A DNA stretch of 64,000 nt, taken from Tilletia caries. Lineage: Eukaryota; Basidiomycota; Exobasidiomycetes; Tilletiales; Tilletiaceae. The stretch spans positions 744,001 to 808,000 of the forward strand of contig JALUTQ010000020.1 in the NCBI GenBank assembly GCA_032718865.1, given 5' to 3'. Below are positions 6,846-26,384 of the stretch, piece after piece (within the stretch, counting starts at the first letter, position 1; every line of letters begins with the position of its first letter). The notes under the pieces are model-generated. The model had not been told where the DNA came from. It made no database searches and saw only the letters and a program-made list of their open reading frames with translations. A program made the position numbers and the translations under genes.

Positions 6846-9800
6846 ATGGAATACTTTGCGCGCCTTCTGGGCAATCGAACTGGAACAGGAGCGGGAGCGG
6901 GAGCGGGAGGAGGAACACCACGCAGCGACACATCGTCGTCCTCCTCACCATCAACACCCGCACGCTCCGCCTTCCTTCGCGCCGTCGCTGGCATCGGGGG
7001 AGACCAAGACTCGTCAGCAAGCCCCAGCGCACGCAAACGCGGTCTCTCGTCGGGGGCAGGAGGAGGTCGCAAGGGAGGGAAGGCGCCCGTTGATCTCGCC
7101 TCTCGCTTCACCGCAGACTGGGAAGCTGTCAAGGTGAGTCTTTATTTCCATCGGCGAACAGGCCAGGACATCAGCCAGGCACTCACCCCTTCCTCCCCTT
7201 TTTGCTCTGCCTAGGCTACCTTGACGAACCCGGATCAACGCGCGCTGCACTATGGCATCGCCAGCTCCGACGTCCCCTTCCTCCTCGAACGCATGGCCGA
7301 CGCCCTCATCACCGAATCATCCTCCTTGCTCTCCTCGTCGTCCACGACGTCACAAGAGACGACAGACATACCACCTTGCATGGAGTATCTCCTCCGCTCC
7401 TCCCTTCTCGACAGACTCGTCCAACTCGCACTGCCCAACAAGCCCAAGGGATCCCTCGCACAGGCCATTCGCTTCTTCACGCGGCTCATCATCGCGCTGG
7501 ACGAATCATTCGTCTCGAGACAGGCGGTCCATCGGCCCCTGGCCAGACTGATCCGCGGCTGCGTTGGCGATGAGGACGGGGACGACCTTGACCGGCTTCG
7601 GGGTCTGGCGTTGGACATTTCTGGCCAAGATGACGATGATGACCAGGACGACGATGATGACGATGATGGGACCATTGGCGGAGGTGATCACGACGGCCCA
7701 CGTCGCAGACGCCGCACCCGCTCGCGCTACGGCCGCATCAACTCCGTCGAAGCGGCCTCCTTCGAACATGACCTCGTCGACCTCATGGCCCACATCGCAG
7801 CACGCATCAAGAGCACGCCCGAGCTCCTCCTCATCTTCTTCCACGACCGACGCAAGAGCTCTCACCAGCAACCCGGAGCCGGACTCACACCTTCCCCCTC
7901 TGTACAGGGGATCACATCACCTGAGACTGCTTCCTCGCCCTTTCTCAACTTCCTCGGTCCCGATGCCAAGCCGGACTTTCCGTTGTTCTCTTATCTGCTC
8001 CGCTTCATTCATCGAGAGGGCAACATCGGCGAACTTGCCCGCGCAGGCCTCCTTAATCTCGTCACCGTCGCCCTCGCGTCCGAACCGTTCGCCATGCCGG
8101 TTGAGAACCCTCCCAGTCGGAGCCGTAGCGGCAGCACCAGTAGTTCTCGCACCCGCACCCGTACCCGTACCCGCACACGCACGAACAGCAATGGCGGAGG
8201 CGGGGCATCTGCACGACAGGCTCTCGCCGCTTTCATTCTCAACTCGGACTTTGCGGAGGTACTGGGGGCAGGATTGGGAGCGGTCTATGGCCTGCTACCC
8301 ACCAAGCTCGTCCTTCTTCGACCCCAACCTACATCGACGTCCCAAACCAATCCGTCATCCTCATCAGCAGAGAAGAACGCTTCCACTCAGGAGGCGCTGC
8401 TGGAGAAGGCTGGGGCGTCCGGTGCGGCCCTCCTCGGGAGCGAGGGTATGCGACTTGGCGCTTCTTCCTCAACATCCCTCCCTCTACTCGACCTCGACTC
8501 GGTAGAACCCCACTTCCTGCTGGACGACGGCGCCACCATGTCCGCCGCTGCGTCCTCCGACACCTTCCCAGTCCGTCTCCGCTCGGCGGGCATGGCGAGT
8601 AGTAATGACCCCGAAGTACAGGCGCAGGTCCGACTGCTTGTCCTCCTTCTCGACTTTGCGCAGGACGTACTGGCCAATGCCGCTGAGGCGATCTATCGCG
8701 ATTCGGTCATTTCTGCAGGAGGAGATTTGCAGGAAGGAGGAGGAGGTGGTGGGGAAGGAGGGGAGACAACGATTGCGAGTGCACTCACCCTTGCCATCGT
8801 TCGTGCGGTCCGCTCGATATTCTTGCAGAACGTCGTCTACCCGTCCATGCTGGAATGCTCGGACGCCGACGGGTCCGCGACGGCCGTGATGGCCTACTTG
8901 GACGTCATGCTCAGCGTCATCGATGACCGGAGCGTGCTGGCGGATGTAGTCGTCGGCTATCTCGTCGGTGCTGCTGAGGGTGATCCTCTCGAAGGTGGCG
9001 GTGGCGTAGACGTGTCTACGGCGGAGACGACGCAGGAGGACGAAGAGGACGAGACGGAGAACGTGATCCGGCTCGAAGGCGGGCTTACCCGGTCTTCCAA
9101 TCAAGCAGGCGTCAAGGCGAACCGACGGCGAAGTGCGGCCCTCCGTCTCGTCCAGGAAGATTCCCGCGTGGCGTCGAACAACCGCTGGGGCGGGGTTGTG
9201 GACGGTGATGGCGAGCTTGCATTTGCGTACAATGCCTCGGGGGACGCGTTGGGGCGGTACACCCTCAAAGACCTGATTCTCTCCCACCTTGAGGAGTCAT
9301 CTTCTTCTTCGTCTTCATCGTCGTCGTTGAAGAGGAAGAAGAGGAAGGTCAGTGCGCAGGCGCGGCAGTGTTCGTTGAGGCTTTTGAGGACTGTCTTGGC
9401 GGAGCATGGCAGGTTCGTCATGGGGTCTTCGCTGATGGTGGGCTGTGTGAGGGAGGAAGGGGCGACGGGGTTCCCATTCCCTACCCCTGCTGCGCTCGCG
9501 CCTTCGGGTTCGAGTCGCGCGGCGGCTGGAGAGGGGAAGAATGGACTTCGTCAGGGAGCAGCAGGGGAGGAGGAGGAGCCGCAGTTCTGGCCGGATGAGG
9601 CGCCGGTTGTAGAGCTTAGGAAGCTGGACGATGAGAACTTTGGGCTGGATCGGTGGGGTGGGTTGGGAGGGGAGGATGAGTCGCAGCCTTGGTCGGATGG
9701 TCGGGGTCAAGTTCCGGCTCAGGGGTTCAGCAAGGGTCCCGCGAATGCGAATGGGAACGGGAACGGCTTTGGGACTACTCACAACGTTTCTTCCGTCGGT

Positions 9801-11545
9801 CATGGCTACGGCAACGGGAACGGTAACGGCAACGGCAGCTTCCGTCTCGCTACTGTCTCTCTCGAGTCGCATCTGCACGAGCTCGGGCTGTACTCGTACC
9901 TAGTCGGCACCCTGCGAGCCATCGACGACAACCCACAACCCGACGGCAAGAAGAAGCGGAGTCTCTCGGGCATCCAGGCGGCGAGCTACGAGCGGTACCT
10001 TCAGGACGCGGGGGACTTGCTCGCGGTCGAGAGTACGTACTTGTACGGCCTTGAAGCGGGTCGGTCTGCCCCTGAGCATTCGTTGCCCCAGTCGCCGTTC
10101 CAACATCGGCTGGTACCCCGCTCCGACCCGCTCCTTCGTACACTTGTCCACGCGCTCGCCCGGTTCTTCGCCCACTCGCCCGAGAGTAATCTGCTGTTGA
10201 CCGGCACGCTGGCGGCGCTTGCGCGGTGTCCGTACCGGAGTCTGGAGGGCTGGATGTGTCCCAGGCTGGATCGGAGGGAGGTTGGTGGGGATCAGGATAA
10301 GGACAAAGAGGGGGATGAGGTGTTGGAGGAGCAGGTTAGGTCTGTCGGGTCGTTCATGAGCTGGTCGCCTTCATGGATTACGACCTCGGTTGGCGGTCGA
10401 CACCAACACCGGTCTGGACTAGCATCGGAGGACGGTGACTGCCCGATCATCCTGTACATTCTGCTCGGCCTCGCTGCGCAGGTGCGGCGCTATGCACGTT
10501 CGATCCCGGACTTCGGGACGTACCTGCGTGAGCGGAGGGAAGGGCTGATGTTCGTCGAGAATCTGAATGATGCGTTGGGTCTGGGTGGGATCGGGGTCGA
10601 GGATGAAGATGGGACGCTTGGCTTTGGGGATGGTGAGCTGGACGGTTCGAGCGGGCGGTCGACTCCCACAGCTTCGTCCGCCTTCCGGACGGTCGGGGGT
10701 GGCAAGTCGGCCGGCTCGGCTGTTGTGCCGCCATCTCAGGTGGCGTCCTCGCTCCTGTCCACTGTCGAGCAGCGGCAGCAAGATCGGGGAGGGGAGGAGG
10801 GCGACCAGGCGGGTCTTCCGGCGGTCCTGTACTACAAGACGACCCCGCCGGAAGATGCGGGCCGACCGGGGACGACTTCGCTGCCCTCGTCCCTGCCTAC
10901 GACGGCCAGCCGGACGAAGAAGAAGGCCGCGGCGAACGCTCGAGGTCTGAAGCGCGGGAACGGCGGGGAGGATGCGCCTCGTGAGGGTGGTGGGGGGAGT
11001 GGGGTGATGGTCCAGCCTTTTGCGCGACATTATGCGGAGACGGGCTCGATCTTTGTGGGTACGGTTGCGGTGAGGCTGCCGACGGAGTGGCGGACGAAGG
11101 CGGAGGTCGCTGCTGATGCTGCTGCTGCTGGGGACGAGGAGGAAAACGGGGGGGTGGGGGGGGGTGGGGGGGGGTGGGGGGGGGCGGTGGTACTGGTGGT
11201 GGGCGTCGGATTCGATTCGAGGATGACGATGAGGAGGAGGAGGAGGATGATGATGAGGAAGACAGCGAGGACAGCGAGGACAGCGAGGAGGACGACAGCG
11301 TAGATACAACAGTCCCGTCGATCCCATCCGTGCGGCCGACCTGGACGCCGAATTCGAGTTCGAACAGCACGACGACGACGAAGGGTGTCCTGAAGAAGAA
11401 GCGGAGCGAGACGGAGTTCGTGACGCTCTCGGCTCTGCTGGACAATGTGGTCATCCTCGAGCAGGCGGTCATGGAGCTCTTGGCGGTCGTGCAGGTTCGG
11501 CGGTGTATGGGGATCGATGCTGTTGCGGTTGCGGGTGGGGTATAG
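6846..11545 (+). CDS. FHF complex subunit FHIP (RAI16-like), two exons, frame broken in poly-G
   Basis: Exon 1 is 6846-7133 (96 codons, ATG in good context), the intron is 7134-7214 (GTGAGT...CTAG, 81 nt, phase 0) and exon 2 starts at 7215. The protein begins MEYFARLLGN. After the intron it shows the RAI16/FHIP core: DQRALHYGIASSDVPFLLERM, PCMEYLLRSSLLDRLVQLA, FFTRLI, then LLLDFAQDVLANA and CSLRLLRTVLAEHGRFVMGSSL. Known role: FHIP with FTS and Hook links early endosomes to dynein; in smuts the Hok1-Fts1-Fhp1 complex does this. Disordered inserts include an Asp run (7630-7675), an Arg-Thr repeat (about 8148-8183) and an Asn-Gly repeat (about 9735-9835). The frame open to 11303 runs into an implausible Arg/Met tail. 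A shifted frame (11174-11545) gives an acidic linker and a helical C terminus ending SALLDNVVILEQAVMELLAV, so the break lies in the G runs at 11148-11184. Expected length is about 1540 residues. Confidence 0.85.
8148..8183 (+). repeat. 6-bp-period minisatellite coding Arg-Thr
   Basis: A run of CGCACC/CGTACC hexamers inside the FHIP gene encodes alternating Arg and Thr in a disordered insert. Confidence 0.7.
11148..11184 (+). repeat. Poly-G tract in the FHIP coding region
   Basis: Successive runs of 7-9 G separated by single T bases. The FHIP frame is lost across it, and frames on either side look genuine, which points to a homopolymer length error or slippage. Confidence 0.8.
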
Positions 11546-11953
11546 AGGGCTCGGTGAGGGCCGAAATTTTTTCCCCTGCATTCCCTTCCCCTTTTTCTCT
11601 TCATTTACACTCCTATACACGCAGCATCAAGGGATACCTCTCACTCTTTGGCAATCAATGTCCATACTTTTCCGTTCTCTTCTGTGTTCCTCAATCTTGC
11701 AAATGAACGTTTTTTTGGGGTCCCATCTGCTGCTTCGCCGGTCGCCTTCGAGGCGCAGACAGACGGACAGAAATCGGTTGACTAAAAGCCTTCGAGGCGC
11801 GCTGACGATTTTGACGCGTCGCGTCACCTCCCACTTCTCGCCGACATTGATTGTCCCTGCCTGCACGACTGTCACCCTCGCCAGTAGGCAGTATTCGGAG
11901 AGAAGCGACTACGCTACCTTCCCTGGCGAACGCGGTAGATCCATAGAGGCACC
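11546..11953. promoter_or_regulatory. Intergenic/promoter region of the TPR gene
   Basis: About 400 bp. It contains a stretch around 11757-11792 (acagacggacagaaatcggt) that recurs with few changes at about 20793-20823, in the leader of the H3-tail-like gene. An MCB-like ACGCGT lies near 11815. No terminator or TATA box could be fixed. Confidence 0.35.
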
Positions 11954-14806
11954 ATGCCGGACATCATCCACGGCACAGACGGGGCGGAGCCCCCTACGGA
12001 GGATTTGCCCTCCGTCGGTGTCGATCTCGATGCAGGGGACGAAAATGATCTCGCCGACATGGAAGACGCGTGTTCCTGTTGCTGGACGACCCAAAGCATG
12101 TACGACGAGGTTGAGTTATACGACTCGAGAGCGAAGCGAGAACCGGAACACACACGGCCTACAGCGAAGTGGGGGGAGGAAGACGAGATGGATTGGGACC
12201 CGCACGCCGCCGAGACCGCTGCCGAGACCGCCGCCACGTCCGCGTCCCATGAGCTCGTTCAGCTCTACAACGACATTGCCGTCCTCACTCATCTGTGCAA
12301 CGATCAAGTCCGGAGAGGCCTTGAACACGTCAGGTGGATCCATCGCAGCTGTCACCGGAGTCAGCGGCTCAGGCCACACGGCGAGCGATACTGTGTTCGC
12401 GTGATGCAGTTTTGGAAACGAGTCGCCCTACAAGAGGTCGCAAACGGCCAACGCAGCCCGCCTGGCACGGCAATTTCGATTCTGCTCAACTGCGTCGAGA
12501 AATTCGTGCTTCACTTCCGTGGCGATGTCGAAAGGATATGGTACATGTCTGTCGTGAATCGGAGCGCACGACGCGTCATGATCCGAAGGCTGTTAGCCCA
12601 GCACCTCAAGAATCTCAAGCAGAACCTCAAAAGCATCGAATCACATCTTCAACTCTTGAATTCGAACCAACGGATGGCACTGGGTCCGAGCCTAGACTCT
12701 CGTTTGCCACTTTTAAGCTCCGGTCCTCTGCAGACCGACTTCCTGCAGACAATGTCATCGGCCTTTAGCACGCTCGCCCGACTCCTTTCGCCTTCCGACT
12801 CGAAAACAGATGTCCAAAAATTGCTCGCACTCTACCCGTTCCTGCACAACATTGTTGCCGTGCCAATCTTTCCCACACAGTCCAGTACGACTCAAGGCTC
12901 CACTTCCCAATCTGGCGTCAGCTTGGATGCTCCAGTCGCGTCTGACCCGATCGCACCCGCCAATGCCATAACCACGGCTACACCTTCCGTATCAGTCGTA
13001 TTTCTCTCGGCGCTTGGCATTGCGCAGGGCGCTCCGGACGAGGAGACGAGCCTTATGGCCGCGCTTGAGGTCGCGCTGAAGGTGCACAGCAAAACACTCG
13101 ACACAGGCCTCCTCAGATTTGCTGACGCAAGCGCGAGCGTGGGATGGAAGCGTTCAGTCTCTGAGGCCGTATTCAGGCTGGTCCGCACATTAAAGCTCAC
13201 GTTACCGAGCCCGACCTGCTTCATCGGCTTGCACGGCTTGCTCATCGGCTTCACACAAATCGGCTTGTACGCTGAAGCTTGCGTTGCGGCCGAGCTTCTC
13301 ATCGCCATCTATCGGGAGTCGCTCCACCACGAACCTTCGGTCAAGATACAGCTCAGCCTCTGCAACGCCCTTGGCGCTCTGAGCTACCTATCCCTCCAGG
13401 TTAGTTTCCAACCCGTGGTTCTCAACTCCATTTTCGCAGCAAAGGATGCACTTCAAATTCTGCAACCTATCTACGAGCGGGATCCGGACCAACACATCGC
13501 CCTGAAGGCCAAGCTCGAAGCTCAACAGGTCCGCGCGTCGAGCAACCTTCGCCATTCGTCATCTTCAAGCGAAAATTATGATTGTGCGGTGGAACTCTGT
13601 CAGCGTGCTGTAGCACTTGACCCATCGAATCTCGAGAACAAGCACTGGCTCGGAGTCCTGCTGCAATACGGCTCGAGAAGGGGTCATCCTGAACATGGAA
13701 ACCAGAGGCTCGATATCCTTCGCGAGCTCAGTGCTGCTGAGCCACGTCTCTACGATCGCACACTAGCGCTGGAGATCCAGAATTATGCCGAGGGATCGGA
13801 CGTCGAGCTCGACGATTCCATTGCAGCGCTCGAAGAAGTCATTTTGATGTACGAGGGCTTCCCGGACGTGCGTTCTGTTCAAGACACCGAAAAGTTGGCA
13901 AAATTGTGTCAGGATCTTGCCCGTTGCTACCAAAAGCAGCATCGAAGTGACAAGTACATCGGCCTTCTGCGCAAAACCGTACAGCTCAGGACAAGTTTGC
14001 CAACCCCTACGCGAAACTTCAGTTTAGGGTCCGAGTTGCTCCCACACTCGATTCTCGAGCTCAGCAAAGCGTATTCAAAGCTGGAACAGTACGGAGAGGC
14101 GCTGGCCCTTGCAGAACGAGCGGAAGCACTGTATCGAGCCCACTACGACGAGTCTCTTTATGGATGTCAGGAGCAGATCACCAGCGTATACCTTGTGGCG
14201 GTCGGCAAACACATGCTCGGTCGCTACGCTGAGGCGGAAGCTCAAGTCCAGGAGGTGATGCGTGGCCAGACAGCAGCCTGGAAGCACGACTCGATTTGCG
14301 GTCCCGCAGACATGAACCACATTTGGGAATACGTCGAGGCGATGGGAACCCTCGGCGCTATTCAGTGCGCGCTCGGCGATACGGACTCTGCTCTCCACAG
14401 CGGTAGCGAGGCGGCCCGGTGGAGCAAGCGCAATTTGCGTCAGAACCGCGCCCGTATCGAGCGCCGGCGACGTATCGCCGGGAACGACATCGCATCCGAT
14501 CTGGGCAATGCGCACACGACAGACTACGTGCTCGAAGTCAGCATGCATCGCATGCTTGTCTTCTACACTGCGACCCTGCTTGATGTGGGCCGGGCCGAGG
14601 AGGCCAGGGCGGTCGTGGAGGAGAGCGTGGAAGGATTGGGCCGGTTGGAAGGGGTCGGGCCCCTGTACAAGACGGCGCTTCTTCTTTGCGTCAAGGTTCT
14701 GGACGCTGTTGGAGGGCGAGAGGACGAGGCGAAGGCGGTGAAGGATCAGGCAAGCAATGTGCCGTTCCGGGGTTTCCTGCAGGTTCTGGGACGCAAGACG
14801 GTGTGA
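11954..14806 (+). CDS. Large TPR-like repeat protein
   Basis: Intronless 950-residue frame with an ATG in strong context (accATGcc). The N-terminal 90 residues are acidic and disordered. Residues about 95-235 are helical (LVQLYNDIAVLTHLC...). Residues about 330-900 are regularly spaced helix pairs with TPR character, for example YDCAVELCQRAVALDPSNLENKHWLG near 541, a CYQKQHRSDKYIGLLRKTV segment near 660 and YGEALALAERAEALYRAHYDESLYG near 712. No enzymatic motif or membrane segment is visible. TPR arrays act as protein-binding scaffolds; basidiomycetes have many large uncharacterised ones, and I cannot assign a partner. It is downstream of FHIP on the same strand but has its own 400-bp upstream region. 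Confidence 0.75.
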   Translation: MPDIIHGTDGAEPPTEDLPSVGVDLDAGDENDLADMEDACSCCWTTQSMYDEVELYDSRAKREPEHTRPTAKWGEEDEMDWDPHAAETAAETAATSASHELVQLYNDIAVLTHLCNDQVRRGLEHVRWIHRSCHRSQRLRPHGERYCVRVMQFWKRVALQEVANGQRSPPGTAISILLNCVEKFVLHFRGDVERIWYMSVVNRSARRVMIRRLLAQHLKNLKQNLKSIESHLQLLNSNQRMALGPSLDSRLPLLSSGPLQTDFLQTMSSAFSTLARLLSPSDSKTDVQKLLALYPFLHNIVAVPIFPTQSSTTQGSTSQSGVSLDAPVASDPIAPANAITTATPSVSVVFLSALGIAQGAPDEETSLMAALEVALKVHSKTLDTGLLRFADASASVGWKRSVSEAVFRLVRTLKLTLPSPTCFIGLHGLLIGFTQIGLYAEACVAAELLIAIYRESLHHEPSVKIQLSLCNALGALSYLSLQVSFQPVVLNSIFAAKDALQILQPIYERDPDQHIALKAKLEAQQVRASSNLRHSSSSSENYDCAVELCQRAVALDPSNLENKHWLGVLLQYGSRRGHPEHGNQRLDILRELSAAEPRLYDRTLALEIQNYAEGSDVELDDSIAALEEVILMYEGFPDVRSVQDTEKLAKLCQDLARCYQKQHRSDKYIGLLRKTVQLRTSLPTPTRNFSLGSELLPHSILELSKAYSKLEQYGEALALAERAEALYRAHYDESLYGCQEQITSVYLVAVGKHMLGRYAEAEAQVQEVMRGQTAAWKHDSICGPADMNHIWEYVEAMGTLGAIQCALGDTDSALHSGSEAARWSKRNLRQNRARIERRRRIAGNDIASDLGNAHTTDYVLEVSMHRMLVFYTATLLDVGRAEEARAVVEESVEGLGRLEGVGPLYKTALLLCVKVLDAVGGREDEAKAVKDQASNVPFRGFLQVLGRKTV

Positions 14807-16788: not shown

Positions 16789-17083
16789 TCCCTTTTGACC
16801 TGGATGTGCTGGGACCTTGGGATGGAAGTTTGTCGAGGCGGGAGAGCCGAGAATACGCTGCGCAGATGAAGTGAAGGGCCGAGGTTTGGGCACTGGAGTG
16901 CTGTGGAAGGACCAAGGGACGCGAACTCGGAAGAATTTGCCTGCGTATCGCGGAGGAGAACGAAATGGAGGGAGAAGAGTATGAGCTCAGAAGGACCTGC
17001 CTCGAGCGAAGAAAGAGAGAATGGAGTGGGCAAACGGTTTGTTGGGAAAGGGAACACTCTCCGGTCCTCTTGACCTTCTTATA

Positions 17084-17559
17084 CGAGGTGGTTGTCAAAA
17101 GTATCCGGACACTAAAATTTTAACCATACGTTTACTAAGTGTTCGCCTCTATTGAGCTCTCGATGCAACTCAAAGACATGGATATGGAAGACGCTCAATG
17201 ATGGGCCATTTGGAAAGCCTCTATACCGGAGAACAACTTCTCTCTGTGGAGTTTTTCCCAGCTCTGACTTGGAAGACAGGTTGCTCTAAGTGGAAAGAGG
17301 AAGAAACGATTGCAATTAGTAATCTACTAGGTGATTTCAAACTCCTTCACACCCACCTTACTCAACCCAGCTCCTCATTTTTTCTCAATTTTTTGAGTCA
17401 CATATTCCGATGCTTCTGCACTCGCGCTAGAAGGTCAGCTAAGAGGTGTATTTTTACAGATTTTACTGACCAAGTTTGACTTAAGGTGAAATAGAGGCGA
17501 ACACTTAGTAAACGTATGGTTAAAATTTTAGTGTCCGGATACTTTTGACAACCACCTCG
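17084..17559. mobile_element. Tc1/mariner-type MITE with perfect 70-bp TIRs
   Basis: The left end (17084-17153) starts CGAGGTGGTTGTCAAAAG and is the exact reverse complement of 17490-17559. TA dinucleotides flank both sides (17082-17083, 17560-17561), the Tc1/mariner target. The internal 336 bp is AT-richer than the host and codes for no transposase I can see; a 93-aa frame at 17198-17479 has no DDE motif. It is non-autonomous, and the perfect TIRs suggest recent movement. Confidence 0.93.
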
Positions 17560-17561
17560 TA

Positions 17562-18089
17562 CGTATAAGGGCTTCTGTCTCCAAAGGAACGCGGAGGAAA
17601 CAGGTGTACCGCTGGCACGTCGAGTTTGCTGTCAGTATGATATGAGAAGGGTGGGAGGAACGTTTCGATTCGCTGTCAGATTGAGATGAGAGAAGCTGAG
17701 AGGGGATGAAGGGATGATGGGAAGAAGGGCGTCAGCCGACAAAGAAGAAGAGCGTCGGGTCTAAGCCTCTAGAGTCTAGGCCCTAGGGCCTGGACATCGT
17801 TCATATGCGACGGTGTTTACTAAGCACAACGAAGTGTCAGTTTACAGTGCAGTCGGATGAGTGACAGGGGGGGAAGAGGACCCAGAAGGAGTATAACGCA
17901 CAAAGGGACCGGCCAATCTGCTTAATGACGATCCCGACGGCAGTACCGTGCTTCATGCACATCAAGTCCCACGTTGTGCCCGAGTTCACAAAAGAAGTCA
18001 TCGCCGAGCATATCGATGTGGCCTTGGTTTCCTTCGTTCCAGACCACCGTCCAATTGTCCGCGTTGGCAGAGTTGGCTTGAATCAGGTG
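17562..18089. other. Unassigned region between MITE and second FHIP relic
   Basis: Non-coding as far as I can see. Nothing resembles a domain or RNA gene. Confidence 0.3.
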
Positions 18090-18390
18090 CGTTTGGTGGT
18101 CGATACCGGCACCGACCTGGGCAAGCGCAGGAAGAGGAGGACTAACCGATCGTGCTGCACGTTCCGCTCGGCCTCGCTGCGCAGCTGAGGTGATACGCGC
18201 GCTCGATCCCGGACTTCGGGGACATACCTGCGCGAGTGGAGGGGGGACCTGATGTTCGTCAAGAACCTTCCGGATGCGCTGGGATTTGGTGTGGGATCGC
18301 AGTTGGAGACGAAGATGGGACGGCTCCGGTTTGGGAATGGTGAGCTCGGATGGTCGTAGTGCGGCTCCTTTGGCATTCAGACGGTGTAAG
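18090..18390 (+). pseudogene. FHIP-derived relic, fragment B
   Basis: DNA matches the FHIP gene around 10385-10700: GGTCGATACCGGCACCGACCT, GCTCGGCCTCGCTGCGCAG, CGATCCCGGACTTCGGG, then GATGTTCGTC and GAAGATGGGACG-type blocks in the same order. Stops and indels break the frame. With fragment A it shows that FHIP gene sequence was once copied downstream of the TPR gene and then decayed. Confidence 0.8.
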
Positions 18391-19210
18391 GGGTCGTGAA
18401 TCTGCCATGCCGCCTTTGCGGATGTCGTTCATCGGTCATCTCCTCTTGTCGTCGCCAGCAGGATCAAGGATGCCGCATAAAAATGCCCAGAGTCTCAGCC
18501 CTAGAGTCGATGTGCATGGACATCCTTCCATGCACAGTCCTGTCAATCACAGCACGGGGAAGAAAAGGCCGTAGGTATCATCGCGTCATCGGCGCCGTTG
18601 TCGTGGAAACATGCGCTGATCAGCTCTTATCGATGCTTCGCGGCTGCAAGCACAAGCCAGGTGGAGATCTTGCTCTGCACGTTCTTGGTCCGTGAAGAGG
18701 CGCGCCTTGTGGGCCGTTGGGTGACTGGACCGTCCTAGAGAGAGAGAGAAAATAGGCGAGCTGTAAGGGAGAGGGAAGGAATGGGAAAGAAGAATGAGGG
18801 AGAGTAAGGGATGAAGAGGGAGAATGAGCGTGTTGAGGAGAAAATCGACAGAAAAAGAACGATCAGTGTGCTCCCTGCGTTCCCACACGCTCCACGGACT
18901 TGTCGTTCTATCGCATGTGGGAGCATCGGTGGTCGAGACAGAACACAGGCATCTCCAAGCACCTCCCAGCTCCCAGGCTGCGGACCCCGTCTTGAACACT
19001 CACATGAAGCAGATTCGTTCGACAAACGGTGCGAGGGGTATGTTACATCATGGATGAGGCTACAGGGTGCTTGTTTGGGGGAGGGGGGTCGACCGATCGT
19101 CGATTAAACCAGAAATATGGGCAGAGCTTGCGCCTCGCGTGTTGCTGATCGTTGAAGATGTTCGTCACGATAAGAGGGGGGGTGCGCAGTGCGAGGGTGA
19201 GCATGCCTCA
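18391..19210. other. Intergenic region with purine-rich tract
   Basis: About 820 bp. 18735-18850 is a GA-rich low-complexity block. No convincing coding frame on either strand. The right end is downstream of the H3-tail-like gene, so it holds its 3' UTR. Confidence 0.35.
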
Positions 19211-20755
19211 TCAAGCCGGGTATCCGCGGAAGTTGCGCATCGCGCATTGCTGGTAGTGGAACCGCAACAGGTTGCGGTTGGGCAAGACGGCCTCTTGAGG
19301 AACTTGCGGAGAGCACCGGAAGCGACTTTGGGGGATGACTGTGCCGTGATAGTATGAGCTCGGGTCCCCCTTGTCGAAGCCGTGGACAATGAAACTGTCC
19401 GAGTCGAGGTCGGCGAAGAGGGCCCATTTGCCCTCTTTGTAGGACTCGTAGAGATCGTCCCGCAGCAAGAGAGCGGACTGAGCCTGGAAGATGCCGCTTT
19501 CGATCGAGCTATCCCATGGTGAATTGACTCCGACGATATCTTGAAGGCCCTGTCGTCGTGGCGAGGGAACGGGAGACAGAGAGAAAGGAGAAAGAGGATC
19601 AGTGTCGGTTTTATGTTAAGAGGTGGACCAAATGTATGCACTCACCATCGGATCATCCGCGGGAACGATGAGACCTGCGACGCAATCTGTGGATGGAGCG
19701 GAGGAGACGAGACAGAAGGAGTCCCTGGCGATGACAGACTCGCGGAGGTCGGCTTCACCATCAACCGTGCTCGAGGACTGATTATCGTCCGAGTCGTCAT
19801 CGCTGTTGCCCTCGTCCAGCTGGGGTCCCTCCAGGGGAGTGCATGCTTCTCCCGTTCGACCGTCGTTACGCACAAAGACAGTGCTCGCAAGGGCCGGCCG
19901 GAGTTCGTCCTGTAGGTCCAATCGGTTGCCTTCGAGCTCGAGGTCGCCCTGTTCTTCGAAGCAGAGATGTACTTGCTCCAGCAGATACGCGAGCTTGCCG
20001 CACTTTCCTTCAGTGACGAACTTTACAGGGACCTTGACAAGCACACCATTGTCTACGGGGTCGAGGACTGTGAAACTGTCGCCGCCCCATGTCTCGGCTG
20101 CGATGTGCTTGACTACTGGTTCCGTGTCGTTGTCAGGGGGAGGCACCTGCACAGACGGCGTAGCATGAACGCGGATACCCCACTCCTGGCCGGTGCTTCT
20201 AGGCGCAAATCCCCCCGTCGACTTCATAGCAGTTTGATGAACCTGCTGATGCCTAGGCGCGATTCCTCCCGTCGACTTCATAGCAGTCTGATGAACGCGC
20301 TGGGACCTAGGCGCCATCCCGCCCGTCGACTTCATGGCGGTGAGACCAACTGACTGGGTTCTAGGTGCGATCCCGCCTGTCGACTTCATAGCAGTTTGAT
20401 AAACCCGCTGTGGCCTAGGCGCGATCCCGCCTGTCGACTTCATAGCGGTTTGGTTGCCAGTGGATGCGTGTTGTGCGTACGGGTGGTAGCCATGTGATTG
20501 GGCTGTTTGGTGGGCTGCACCGTCAGCGTTGCGACCTTGGACATATGTGTTTCGAGCAGGCGCGCCGCGGCTAGTTGACTGCTGTGCGGCTTGCTGGTGG
20601 GAAGCACTTGTTCCAGTATGAGGCCGGGGAGGAAGGTGAGCAGGAGGACGGGGAAGACCAGGGGGAGCTGAAGTGCCAGGTGCGGGCGCGACTTGCTGGC
20701 GACGGGGAGCATGGCCGCCAGTCGATTTCCGGGCAGTCAGTGGTACCCTCGCCAT
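19211..20755 (-). CDS. Histone-H3-tail-like repeat protein with HNH-like domain
   Basis: Exon 1 is 20755-19646, the intron is 19645-19550 (GTGAGT...ACAG, 96 nt) and exon 2 is 19549-19211; 482 residues. I chose ATG 20755 because it gives MARVPLTARKSTGGHAPRRQ, matching the first 20 residues of histone H3 at most sites. Residues 101-188 are five 18-residue repeats (54 bp) each with QTAMKSTGGIAPR, again H3-tail-like, with Lys9-Ser10-Thr11-Gly-Gly kept and Arg8 changed to Met. Residues about 190-340 are globular, then acidic. Residues about 341-480 match the fungal HNH_2 fold: RDSFCLVSS...DCVAGLIVP, ALLLRDDLYE, and a LLRFHYQQCAMRNFRG end. The A-A-H of active HNH_2 proteins is A-G-L here, so nuclease activity is doubtful. 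Function unknown. A nuclear or chromatin role is inferred from the tail mimicry only. Confidence 0.75.
20190..20457 (-). repeat. 54-bp tandem repeats (five copies) coding H3-tail-like units
   Basis: GTCGACTTCATAGCAGT-type blocks recur every 54 bp at about 20218, 20272, 20326, 20380 and 20434. Units differ by a few bases, and all keep the frame. Confidence 0.9.
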
Positions 20756-21247
20756 CTTGGGTGGGAAGCTGTGGAATGAATGTGAGTCAGTGGACAGACA
20801 GACAGAAAATCGATTGACCAAGGCCGCGCAAAGGGCGCAGCAAAGAGGCGCGCGTCGACGTGACGCGCACACCTACAGGAGGTGTTCTAAGTAAAGGGGG
20901 GGGGGAAAGATACAGCAGCGCTGCTTCCTTATGGGCATGGTACTAGCCCGGGTCGTATCGCTCCTTTGCAGCTCTGCCGGCGGAGATCAGTACCCCTGAC
21001 GGGCGTCTGCATGCGTGGAGGTAGAGAAAAGGAGGAAAAGAAAAGAGAATGTGCGAACGAAGATGGAAGGAAGGCAAGAGGGAAGAGAAAAAAGGTGGTG
21101 AGGACTCGGAATGATGATCTTGGGCGTACGAGGACCGGGGCGAGGCAGAGACCGTCGTGATTGTGATCGGAGGTGGTGGCTGGGAGAAAGGGTGGTCCGA
21201 ATATTGCCGTATGTATCTTGATGAGATGAGAATATGAGATTCCCCGA
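20756..21247. other. Region between the H3-tail-like gene and the LINE
   Basis: Contains the promoter/leader of the H3-tail-like gene, including the element shared with 11757-11792 and a G10 run at 20896-20905. From 21030 to 21247 it should hold the 3' end of the LINE; I could not find a poly-A tail or target duplication. Confidence 0.35.
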
Positions 21248-21356
21248 CTATGCACCGCCGCCGTCGATGCGTGCATACAGCTCACGCGTGTACGCCCCCG
21301 AGGCGCGCGCGAAGGCCAGCAGGGCTAGGATTCCCTTCTTGTCATTGACCAGCGCC

Positions 21357-23729
21357 TCATTTGTGTGCCGATTGCCCTCTCCGTCCAACAGTAGCGCGTG
21401 GTGCCGTGTGAAAGCGGGGCATGTGAGCGGGTGGAACGGGGACCGAAGCTTGCCGCACAGGGACCAACGCTCTGCGTCGAGGTGTCGGAACCGGTCGTGG
21501 TACTCCGCAAAGTCCCCGTGGCCGGTGCGGATCTGAAGAAGGATTCCCAGGTCCCGGCGAGGGAGCTGCAAGGTGGGCCCGGATCGGTGCACAGGAACGG
21601 TCACGCGCGTGTGGAAGTACCAACCAGAGCGAATTCCGGCGGCAGTGCTCCAAGCTGCGCGCCATGCATCGTGCGCTCTTTGGTTCACCTGTCTCCCAGC
21701 GTAGGAGACTGATGTTGCAGAGGGGTACACAGTGCCCACACCACTGCCCCCCTTTTGCAAGGTAATCCGCACGCTCGTTTCCGTTGACCTGCGCGTGACC
21801 GGGTACCCAACTGAGTTTCAGCCGGTTCCTGGGGTCCTTGTTCAGCCATCTCCTGGCTCGCCTGTCGAAGGTCTTGACAACGGAAAGGCTGCTGACGCTC
21901 ATGCCGACCGCAATAGCCTGTAAGGCGGCGTCGTTGTCTGCCCAGATGTTGATGTCCGTCAGGCCTCGTCGTTGCGCGTGATCAATGGCACTGCTGAGTC
22001 CAAATAAAAGCGCAATCAGTTCAGCGTCAAACACCTCCCGGTGAAGACCTGTCGAAGCCGATCCGCTGCTGATTTCCCGCCCGCGCCAGCATACTGTCCA
22101 TCCTGCTCCCGTGCTCCCCTCCTCCGTCCTAGATCCATCGGTGAAGACGCAGATCTCGTTCGCATGCCTTTGCAGCTCGATCCTGGTAGAAGCTGCTGCT
22201 TCTGTCTTGTTCCTCGGGAACGCCGATGCTGTTTTCACCTCGACGCCCAGCAAAGCACCAAGGGCCGTCCACCAAGGAGGTCGCAGCCAGTCGACTCGTT
22301 CGATATTCTGATCGCAGCGTTGGGCCAGTAGCGTAAGTCGTGTCCAGTGTCGCCTGAGATAGTGATCCAGAATTGTTGGTGGTCTCTGAGCGCGGTTCCA
22401 GCTGGTCGGCGGTCGCTGGTCTGTAAATCCGAAGGCTCCGGCTCGTCGCACGAGTGTGTGATTGCGACGTTTTGAGGCCAACCGCAGCGCGTACCGGTCC
22501 AGCATCCTGTCCAAATATTGCTCCATTGGCATGCACCCCGCTTCCACCTGCAATGATGGCACACTGGCAGTGCGCCACACTGGGAGAACCATTCTCAGCG
22601 CATTTGACTGTTCCCGTTCCATCGCCTGCACCTTGTGCACGGCACCACGCACCGCAACCGTCTGTACCTCCTCGTCCTGTTCCTCCTGTGCTCCTCTACG
22701 GGACTCTACCGCTCGGCGGCGGCCCTGCCACCACACCGTTGCCCCATATGTCATGATGGGCAAGACGCACGCAACAAACAGCCTCCGGGCGTCGCATGCG
22801 CGTAGACCACGCACAGTGTTGACGAGCATGCGCATGCACTGCGCCGCTTTCCGTGCCTTCGCGCACACGAGTTCGACGTGGCGCTTGAAAGAGAGCTTCG
22901 AGTCGAGGTGGAAGCCAAGCCACCTAACCGTGCTGCCTGGCGCAACCGGCGCTACCTCGCCATCGGGAAGGTCGACAGGCAGTAGCGGCGCCGGTTCCGA
23001 CGGGCGGCGGACGTGTGGTGGAGGGAAGTGGATCAACTCCCGCTTGTTTGGGTCGAATGTCAACCCAACTTCCTCCGCCCACGCTGTCGCCGCTCGATAT
23101 CCGTAGGCCAAAGTCTGGCAATTCTGTTCAATGTCAAGAGAAGAAGTGTAGATCAATCCATCATCGATGAAGCCAATCACCCTGAGTCTTCGCAGAGTGC
23201 GGTCTCCGCTTTGAGGGCCAAACAGTCGCAGCAGCGGGCTTACGAAGATGATGAAAAGAATAGGAGAAACCGGGGATCCTTGAGGGATGCCTGTGTTGAG
23301 TTGAGACATCGCCGACGTCTCGCCATCTAGCCTGATAGCCGCATGCCGAGCTGTAAGGAAGGACCGCACCCACCGCACCAGATGCAAAGGGCAGCCAAGC
23401 CGGTAGAGGAGGTGGACCAAACGTTCGCCATGAGTAGCATCGAATGCCCCCTTGACGTCGAACGCCAACGCCGATGTTGTGCGTTGATCCAGCTTTGCCC
23501 AGCCTGCCTCCACATCGTGAATGAGGGTTAGCGCCGCATCATCGGTGCTGCAGCCGGGCATGCCTCCAAATTGCTCGGGAGGAACCCATCCATACTTCCG
23601 CGCGTAGAACGTAAGCCGTTGGGCGACGATCTTCTCCAACACCTTGCCCAGGCAGGGGAGAAGGGAGATCAGCCGATACGAGCGTGGTTGGGCTGGATCG
23701 CGATTGCCGCTTTTCTTCAGAGCCACCAA
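21357..23729 (-). pseudogene. LINE reverse transcriptase and RNase H domains
   Basis: Visible RT motifs in order: SYRLISLLPCLGKVLEK, AFDVKGAFDATHG (first Asp), NTGIPQGSPVSPILF, GFIDDG (the F-x-D-D active site), and VRWLGFHLDSKLSFKRHV. RNase H follows with FTDGSRTEEG, DAELIAL, WADNDAALQA and WVPGHAQVNGNERAD, carrying the acidic residues and His. After KGG the frame turns to nonsense, while frame 21772-21248 gives the genuine tail (LQLPRRDLGILLQIRTGHGD, CPAFTRHHALLL). The element is therefore not functional as read. Confidence 0.9.
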
Positions 23730-25000
23730 GTCGCTTGGCGAAACACCGAGGGGTGCCAGCCAAGGCGGAGTGCGGTCGACAGAAGCTTGACCATACTTGT
23801 CTTCGCTGACGGCCAGAGGCGGCGAAGAGTGAGGAACCCCACGTCGTCCGGACCAGGCGCTTTCTTCGGATCCTGTTCGAACAGGGCCCGCTCCATCTCC
23901 TGTTCCGTCAGGGCCTCATCAGCCGCTGTCGTTTCGTGAGGGATGTGGAGGTCGATTGGTGGGAGGTTGGCGGCGACGGGTGCTGGTAAGAGAACCCTCC
24001 GCAACACCTCCGCCTTCTCCGCTGTCCCTACCACCACATTTCTATCTTCATCGACCAGTGGGGGACTCCTATACCTTCTTCTCCCCTCTGACCATCGCAT
24101 TGCCCCAAAAATGTCATTGCCCTGCAGGTCGTCGATCTTCTGCCGTGCCCATGATCGCTTTGCCTTGGTCACCGTCTTGTGAAACTGAGCGCGACAACGG
24201 CCAAGCCGCTCCTGGTATCGTTCTGACCGCGGAGAACGCTGCTGCTGCTGTCGTGCCGCTCGATATTTCGCATGTGCTCTCGCGCAATCCGCATTCCACC
24301 AGGCGTAACCCCCCCGCTTCCCGGATGAGCGAGGGGTGCTGTTCTCCAGTGAAGCCTTCAGGGCCATACTGAAAGCTCGGGTAGCCTCGTCGAGTTGATC
24401 CGTCGCTGTTGGGCTCGTGCCGTCTGCCGCAACAGCGGCAGCTGTGATCAGGCCTTCGAACTGCGGGATCATTGACTCAAACTCCGCCGTCAAGATCCCC
24501 ACATCCGTCCTCCGCTCCGAGAGCCTTCCCAGTCCCTCGTGGCGATCCCCACGAGCAGGTCTGACCTCCAGCTCCGTCCATATGACCTCATGGTCCGAAC
24601 CCACATGCAGATCTGAACGGACTCTGCATTCGCGGAGCCATCCTAGTCTGTGAAGAGCTGGGGAGAGAAAGACCAAGTCAAGTGCTGCGCCTCCTCCTAC
24701 GCTCCCAATACCCCTTGTGGCTGTGCCTGCCTCCAAGCCCAGTCCCCATCCCTGTGCTCCCATCCAATTCGACAACAATCTTCCCGCTGTATTTGTCCTC
24801 CCGTTCCAATCCTCCGTGGCCCAGTTGGCCTCATGCGCATTGAAATCTCCCGCCACCAGAACCGCTTCCTCTGCCTCGTTCCACCGAGAGCCAGTCACGA
24901 CTCTGACCCCGTCCGCTTGACCTCGTTCTCCTCGAGGTGCATTATATGCATTCACCAGCTGCAGGCGCTGGCTGGCAAAGCCCCGAATCTGCAGATGTGA
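23717..25000 (-). pseudogene. LINE endonuclease domain (partial)
   Basis: The APE-like motif VAGDFNAHEANW and the C-terminal GSDHEVIW are present, with the domain-typical LDLVFLSP between them. The stretch after it (AWWNADCARAHAKYRAA, PGPDDV, GWHPSVF) is the usual LINE linker into the reverse transcriptase. The frame ends at 23717 because a base is missing just before LVALKKSGNRDP, where the RT starts in another frame. Confidence 0.85.
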
Positions 25001-25005
25001 GTCAG

Positions 25006-26384
25006 TGGTGGTGCTCCAGTTGGACGATCTTCCAAAGTTCCAAGACGCTCGGACCTCATCGCCTCATCGCCTCATCTCGAAGTTCTCCAACAGTCATCAA
25101 GCAGATCCAGCAGCCAGTCTTCCCCCAATCGTACAAGGAAACCACATTCAACGATGAGGAACACTTGCTCTGCGACTGATTCGAAGGCAGAAGGGTGAGT
25201 TCCATTCCCAGCTCAGTACTGACGAGAAGTTGTCTAGTCCCCAGCGAGAGCGAGGGACAATCGGCCACGTGAGGTAGGAGAGACGCGACGTGTCCGTAAA
25301 CATGACCTTTCTCTTCCTTCATCTTCTCTTCCCAGCTGCCGTTCCGTATTCTCATCTCGCAGGGCAGACGTGGCAGCGAAGATGCGTTCCTTTTCCTTCT
25401 CCCCTTCAATCATACATAACCTCCTTCGTTGCTACAGCATCCCTCTGCAGCGGTATCGCTCTCTCAGTCGGCTCACATACTTCTGAGTTTTCCCACCCAC
25501 CTCCCCGTGCGTTTCCTCCCCAAGCGCTGCTTCCCCGGTTCGCACGCGCGACCGGACAGCGTTCGAGCTCGCTACACCACCAAGTTGGCCGAATCCTCTG
25601 GGACGGTTTGGGAAAGAAACGGTCCCGGGAGAGTTCACAATCTAGTTCTCTGACACCCCATCAATTTTATTTCCTGAACCCTTTTTCATAAACACTTTCT
25701 GAACGGTCTGTCTGAAAAACGGTTCGAGAGGTTTCGTATGGGGAGCTTCCTGGACGAAATCTCGGCATGGTACTGGAGTTTATTACCCTCTGGCTCCTTG
25801 TTGGACTGTGTCGTTGTCGTTATCGTCCACATCGTCGCCCTCAATTCATCTGCTCATTGCTGACTTTTTGGCCTTCATTTATGATTTACCATTGACTGAT
25901 GATGCTATCAGGTGTGGGCCGGACAGGTATAGGACCGTAAACCTCCCTCAACCCCCATCCCGAGCGACACAATCCGTCATTCAGAATCATCTGTTGCGGC
26001 TCCTCCTGGTGGTCATGCTCCACGACATTGACGGTGGCGTCAACAACCTCCCGCTCTTGCCTGCGCTGACCTGATGCAGTTATTGCACAGCTATGTGCGG
26101 TGCAATGGTGAGCGACATTGCACACAAAACTGACCGACTGTAAATTGAAGGATGATACTGATATCAGTCCGAGTCTTCAGACTCGACCGCATTGGAATCA
26201 CTCACTTTGAGAGGTATGAGGAATCGACCTTGACCGCACACAAGTTCGTGAAGCCCAAATGGGTTTGCGCCGTCAACTTTCCTGATCTCAAAAAGCGGCT
26301 GAACAAGAACCAAGCACTGCTGAGCCGCCTCCGGGGCGTCGTTGGGAAGGCTCTTCGGATTACCAAACAGTGATACGATTCGAA
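25006..26384. other. Unassigned region containing a dispersed repeat
   Basis: Around 25490-25600 a block of about 105 bp (cccacctccccgtgcgtttc core) recurs at about 35655-35760. A 73-aa plus frame at 26152-26373 has no domain I recognise. Otherwise nothing found. Confidence 0.35.

Follow-up and report, generated by a model that had tools for sequence, protein, structure and literature searches.

The window analysed here, a 64,000-nucleotide stretch of contig JALUTQ010000020.1 (positions 744,001 to 808,000) of the wheat bunt fungus Tilletia caries, contains a gene whose 482-residue product carries six segments resembling the tail of histone H3, one at its N terminus and five in a tandem array of 18-residue units. 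The resemblance of this protein to H3 is real and goes beyond chance, and the core of the internal units is under purifying selection while the spacers and the residue at H3 position 14 vary. The H3-tail array would be a new form of histone mimicry. We tentatively propose, from its sequence and with a probability of roughly 0.4, that the array may be a multivalent H3-tail mimic, serving as a decoy or scaffold for one or more H3-tail binding proteins that need neither R8 nor K14.

The gene lies on the minus strand (20755..19211), at the coordinates given in the first-pass annotation of this DNA, and comprises two exons. Exon 1 (19646..20755, residues 1–370) is an open frame running from the ATG to the donor GTGAGT and holds the H3-like N terminus, a linker, the five-unit array and the start of the C-terminal region; it is followed by a 96-bp GT..AG intron (19550..19645, GTGAGT..CAG) and by exon 2 (19211..19549, residues 371–482 and the stop codon). 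The splice join, between DDPM and GLQD, is identical in the Tilletia controversa protein P0003. The N terminus, MARVPLTARKSTGGHAPRRQ (20696..20755, minus strand), is in H3 register from the start codon (MAR..TARKSTGG.APR), with A1, R2, T6-G13 and A15-R17 kept and the replacements T3V, K4P, Q5L and K14H. A basic linker rich in Ala, Pro, Gln and His (20453..20695, minus strand; isoelectric point (pI) 11.9 for residues 1–99) leads to the array (20198..20452, minus strand), whose five units span residues 102–186, share the core TAMKSTGG(I/I/M/I/F)APR and appear in the DNA as a 54-bp tandem array at 20199-20452. The motif KSTGG begins at residues 10, 106, 124, 142, 160 and 178, so that the five internal copies are spaced exactly 18 residues apart. 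As first described, K9-S10-T11-G12-G13 is present in all six copies and R8 in the first only; the reported repeat QTAMKSTGG.APR holds for four units, unit 3 reads LTAM, and the spacer behind the fifth unit deviates. K14 and K4 had both been reported as lost: K14 is indeed absent from all six copies, and the absence of K4 applies to the N-terminal copy, the internal units starting past that position. Position 14 in the five units is I, I, M, I and F, never K and always hydrophobic. Residues 1–200 are strongly basic (pI about 12) and the later parts acidic (pI 4.1–4.8). The 18-residue period (window 20198-20452) equals the distance from K9 to K27 in the residue numbering of H3, and unequal pairing of the two ARKS motifs of H3 could have begun the array.

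In a phmmer comparison with PDB sequences, the full-length sequence hits histone H3 by way of its N terminus (best expectation value (E) 0.002), and residues 86–201, searched alone, also hit H3 (best E 0.003). The genome searched comprises 38.1 Mb in 40 contigs, and all counts from it are lower bounds. The pattern A-x-K-S-T-G-G, with serine encoded as TCN, occurs at 16 sites, six of them in the array gene, seven at H3 loci and three elsewhere, and the reversed control pattern at one; the earlier judgement that chance similarity is unlikely is thus borne out. No second array of this pattern was found in the genome, two of the three sites outside the array gene and the H3 loci having been inspected and the third (on contig C30) not. 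One of these outside sites (L079, G000:C19:1095001) is a short frame reading MARTK, 20 other residues and QTARKSTGGKEPK; it resembles an H3 tail that has decayed and taken up an insertion, and lies about 3 kb from the H3 locus L040. No histone fold was found after the tail: the whole protein has no Pfam match (E up to 1), the PDB matches shown lie in the tail-like parts, and a search of three pieces of the protein against Pfam at E up to 10 gave a single sub-threshold match, which is not histone-related.

The first-pass annotation had set selection on K9-S10 beforehand as a refutation test, which the array passes. In the 11 core codons (T6-G13, A15-R17), comparisons of all pairs among the five units add up to no nonsynonymous and 39 synonymous differences, so that the proportion of nonsynonymous differences (pN) is 0/240 sites and that of synonymous differences (pS) is 39/90 sites (0.43). 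In the other seven columns of the unit, pN is 0.48 and pS 0.59. Seven of the 11 core columns vary synonymously only and four are invariant, and all seven other columns vary nonsynonymously (Fisher p 6e-4); in a simulation, the eight core changes were all synonymous in 1 of 20000 draws. None of the five units has lost T6, K9, S10 or T11 (20 sites). When folded as RNA, two of the five showed nothing unusual (z -0.27 and 0.07) that would point to RNA structure as the cause of the codon pattern. A core free of nonsynonymous change beside freely changing spacers leads us to reject a neutral minisatellite, barring some different origin of the codon pattern.

A protein search, which picks up relatives sharing 5-residue words only, gave a single T. 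controversa cluster (8 sequences), both with the whole sequence (7997 candidates sharing most words scored) and with residues 205–482 (1598 candidates scored). P0003 from T. controversa (432 residues) is 99% identical where aligned (87% by gapped BLASTP), with two substitutions outside the array, and keeps the K-S-T-G-G core in all of its copies, which upholds the earlier expectation for the one known orthologue. The two proteins are unequal in unit number: compared with the 482-residue protein, P0003 has one 18-residue unit fewer and lacks a further 32 residues. These 32 residues correspond to 96 bp of the T. caries gene that begin with GT, end with AG and keep the frame, and their absence may reflect an intron introduced by annotation. 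The fifth unit is read as coding because its core change is synonymous only. In its own genome the array gene is single copy and its body is not multicopy DNA; no paralogue was found there, the third match (E 0.04) containing a stop.

The H3 setting of this gene is at least as interesting as the array itself. A search for H3 gave 89 exon matches, one of which is the N terminus of the array gene, and the rest were grouped into 35 loci (L021-L055); filamentous fungi typically have two or three members of the H3-type family (PMC3538342; this article and PMC6710886, PMC9768651, PMC10611923 and PMC12730594 are cited throughout for excerpts of their texts). H4 is not expanded, with seven matches at five places. 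Ten H3 loci (L044, L046, L048 and L049-L055), with tails broken, missing or very divergent, were excluded, leaving 25 readable tails. Among these, L028 has a stop in the tail, L031 a frame change in the tail and L035 a frame change in exon 2, L047 is without a readable start, and the tail exon of L024 ends at K14, so that its later codons in the DNA comparison are intron. At position 9, eight of the 25 tails have K, nine R, four F and four Q, K9 thus being replaced in 17/25, a figure that counts loci and not events as many of the tails are near-identical copies. In exon 2, pN/pS is 0.09–0.23 for 11 chosen H3 pairs, so that the fold appears to be under constraint even though K9 itself is free. 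Lysine 9 of H3 is linked to silencing. As writers the genome has two Pre-SET loci over the cut-off, and as candidate readers 41 chromodomain matches, of which many are repeats and likely to be retroelements, so that K9 methylation machinery is plausible.

Groups of H3 loci share about 2.1–2.6 kb including flanks at 91–99% identity, and 12/35 loci lie within 5 kb of a KDZ or hAT transposase (1.05 expected) and 16/35 within 10 kb (1.92 expected), the binomial values treating as independent H3 copies that are not. The K9R copies L031-L033 and L037 have a KDZ transposase 2.8–3.7 kb off (E 4.8e-45 beside L033), and the four K9F copies have the end of a hAT transposase 0.8–0.9 kb off. A piece of about 98 bp recurs inverted some 8–12 kb from each of these four K9R copies (L033:52-149, G000:C5:1655129-1655222 and likewise on C19, C23 and C30), possibly marking element ends, and is also present at C39:92926-93023. 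L049, L050 and L052 are divergent H3 relatives, which we take to be perhaps of CENP-A type; L049 and L050 are 98.6% identical over 2.1 kb, each with a hAT transposase end 0.24 kb away, so that H3 of the centromere type may be mobile in this genome as well. Among other Tilletia proteins, P0018 (T. laevis/caries) includes L036 with 100% identity, K9F and K9R forms occur in T. controversa, and a K9R/K14Q form is found in T. horrida.

Transposon-carried H3 in fungi is already known, as H3L of Pyrenophora tritici-repentis (PMC3538342) and hAT-H3 of Pseudocercospora fijiensis and other Mycosphaerellaceae (PMC6710886), where there are likewise many extra H3 genes with hAT elements; the K9-replaced, transposase-linked set of T. 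caries appears to be a new form of it. T. caries differs from the cases in these excerpts in being a basidiomycete, in having intron-bearing copies, in the involvement of KDZ besides hAT and in the replacement of K9 in most readable tails; its array gene, moreover, is single copy and outside any such element. Fungal DNA transposons also carry TET/JBP dioxygenases (PMC12730594, an article in which the name KDZ occurs), a similar case of epigenetic cargo, whereas the cargo in T. caries is histone H3. In the text of that article the word histone occurs four times, never for a transposon-carried histone gene, and Tilletia is not mentioned; the word histone is absent from the main texts of PMC10684912, PMC9172201 and PMC7184893 and appears twice in that of PMC10849329 (CENP-A and a reference). 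Neither an H3-tail array in a non-histone protein nor the Tilletia H3 expansion was found in the open-access literature searched. With 35 H3-related loci, K9 often replaced and many copies near DNA transposases, this genome offers a direct test of whether mobile elements evade silencing by means of altered histones.

The retention of K9-S10-T11-G12-G13-x-A-P-R in the array suggests a partner that recognises the middle part of the tail. Such a partner would contact K9-S10-T11-G12-G13 and A15-P16-R17 and do without R8 and K14. Repeating the unit would give higher avidity or more binding sites, and the acidic half of the protein may mask the basic half or interact with other proteins. Of the six copies, only the N-terminal one (T-A-R-K-S) might in addition be a canonical K9 methylation or S10 phosphorylation site. 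Readers of A1-R2-T3-K4, GCN5-type enzymes acetylating K14 and R8-dependent enzymes each depend on residues missing here (K4, K14 and R8), and are therefore poor candidates for the internal units. A selected tandem array of this kind would lend itself naturally to probing H3-tail binding proteins through avidity. The first-pass annotation had envisaged titration of H3K9 modifiers, which for ordinary H3K9 methyltransferases does not fit the internal units: the EHMT2 substrate motif requires R before K (PMC10611923), and the motif [GCSAKLN]-R-K-[TGQSVMALNKER] is matched by one of the six copies (A-R-K-S, residues 8–11) and not by the other five, which read A-M-K-S. Known H3K9 mimics, such as the G9a/GLP automethylation sites and EHMT2 substrates, are in the excerpts of PMC9768651 and PMC10611923 short motifs inside larger proteins; like the array protein, whose N-terminal copy reads A-R-K-S, they place a short H3-like motif in a protein that is not a histone, and they differ from it in that the T. 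caries protein is a fungal orphan with six copies, five of them without R, and with K14 replaced.

Several observations weigh against a multivalent H3-tail mimic. Having lost R8, five of the six copies do not fit recognition by a classical K9 methyltransferase or of the Aurora type. The protein has no classical nuclear localisation signal, only the two-residue basic clusters R9-K10 and R18-R19, and the word-based protein search found no orthologue beyond the single T. controversa cluster of 8 sequences. A long interspersed nuclear element (LINE) about 38 bp above the ATG makes expression of the gene in this strain uncertain. By residue identity, units 1, 2 and 4 agree with the L036 tail (QTAKKSTGGIAPR) at 12/13 positions and with the canonical L025 at 11/13, units 3 and 5 tie among L036, L029, L027, L043, L045 and L025 (10/13 and 11/13), and the best matches of the N-terminal copy are L025, L027 and L043 (13/17). 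The edge of L036 over canonical H3 is thus a single residue in three units. At the DNA level, the six segments show no excess similarity to the 25 H3 tails over synonymous redraws (P 0.33–0.71), so that the likeness is either old or convergent. A recent capture of an H3 exon was considered and rejected, there being no DNA signal of it.

The same result bears on a rather unlikely but serious alternative, in which the units are a convergent or structural repeat whose core folds or binds something other than chromatin, its H3 likeness being a short-motif coincidence. Besides the missing DNA-level kinship, this explanation would account for the absence from the array of R8 and K14, which are well-known contact residues of H3, and it agrees with a C-terminal region that belongs to no chromatin family. 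It is at odds with an N-terminal copy that is in H3 register from the start codon, with the independent matching of two separate parts of the protein to H3, and with the rarity of A-x-K-S-T-G-G elsewhere in the genome.

We consider it unlikely that an H3 first exon was captured long ago and then duplicated, its tail serving not as a decoy but as a platform for modification (phosphorylation of S10/T11, acylation or methylation of K9) that would regulate the acidic C-terminal part. The invariance of T6, K9, S10 and T11 over the 20 sites would be expected of such a platform, and the agreement of the 18-residue period with the K9-to-K27 distance and the frequent mobilisation of H3 genes in this genome also speak for it, but there is no DNA signal of capture and the canonical arginine at position -1 is gone in five of the six copies.

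An intragenomic arms race over the H3 tail is quite improbable in our estimate. Here KDZ and hAT elements would carry K9-altered H3 variants, and the six-tail protein would soak up or redirect their reader; the transposon-borne tails (K9R, K9F, K9Q, and R8K with K14I/L) would escape or rewire K9 marking, and the internal units would share altered features of the KDZ-linked variants, namely the missing R8 and a hydrophobic residue 14. Only two of the 25 H3 tails (I in L036, L in L029) have such a residue there, as all five units do, and these two loci share the loss of R8 with the units and have KDZ transposases 3.6 and 3.8 kb away, a likeness that also speaks for the multivalent mimic. As for a transposon-borne H3 element, which would consist of multicopy DNA with a nearby transposase, no such arrangement was found at the array gene: the nearest hAT match is 34 kb from it, and its contig holds none of the 38 KDZ matches.

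The acidic C-terminal region (residues 201–482, 19211..20155, minus strand; pI 4.1–4.8 in its parts) includes an acidic stretch rich in Asp and Ser (residues 314–336, 19748..19816, minus strand; analysed as residues 314–345) and belongs to no recognised family, with no Pfam and no PDB match at E up to 10. The first-pass annotation had called it HNH-like, and this label is not supported: the last 156 residues have no NCBIfam match at E up to 10, no HNH_2 place over the cut-off was found in the genome searched exon by exon, the one sub-threshold place (L005) is unlike the C terminus of the array protein, and neither an HNH profile nor a His/Asn metal site was found, His being absent from residues 264–425. 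The last 40 residues (LLRFHYQQ..NFRG) are reminiscent of fungal HNH_2 proteins, a likeness that no search result supports, and an HNH-type nuclease carrying an H3-like targeting tail is accordingly very improbable. A neutral coding minisatellite with an accidental H3-like reading is scarcely credible, for although the structure is a 54-bp tandem and T. controversa has exactly one unit fewer (the possible annotation intron aside), a core pN of 0 against a pS of 0.43, freely changing spacers and the outcome of the simulation contradict it.

The 3′ end of the LINE adjoins the array gene. Its endonuclease, reverse transcriptase and RNase H frames occupy 20793..25063 on the minus strand, with repeated DNA tested for 20793-21350, and the repeated DNA begins about 38 bp above the ATG. 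The DNA from about 17661 to 20792 around the array gene had no other genome match (40 of 69 candidates scored). A repeat of about 480 bp at window 17082-17561 is bounded by 72-bp inverted ends, is present in 32 additional near-full-length copies at 91–100% identity, and resembles a miniature inverted-repeat transposable element. In window 7215-14803, the neighbouring host-type genes encode a RAI16-like protein and another whose TPR matches fall just under the cut-off.
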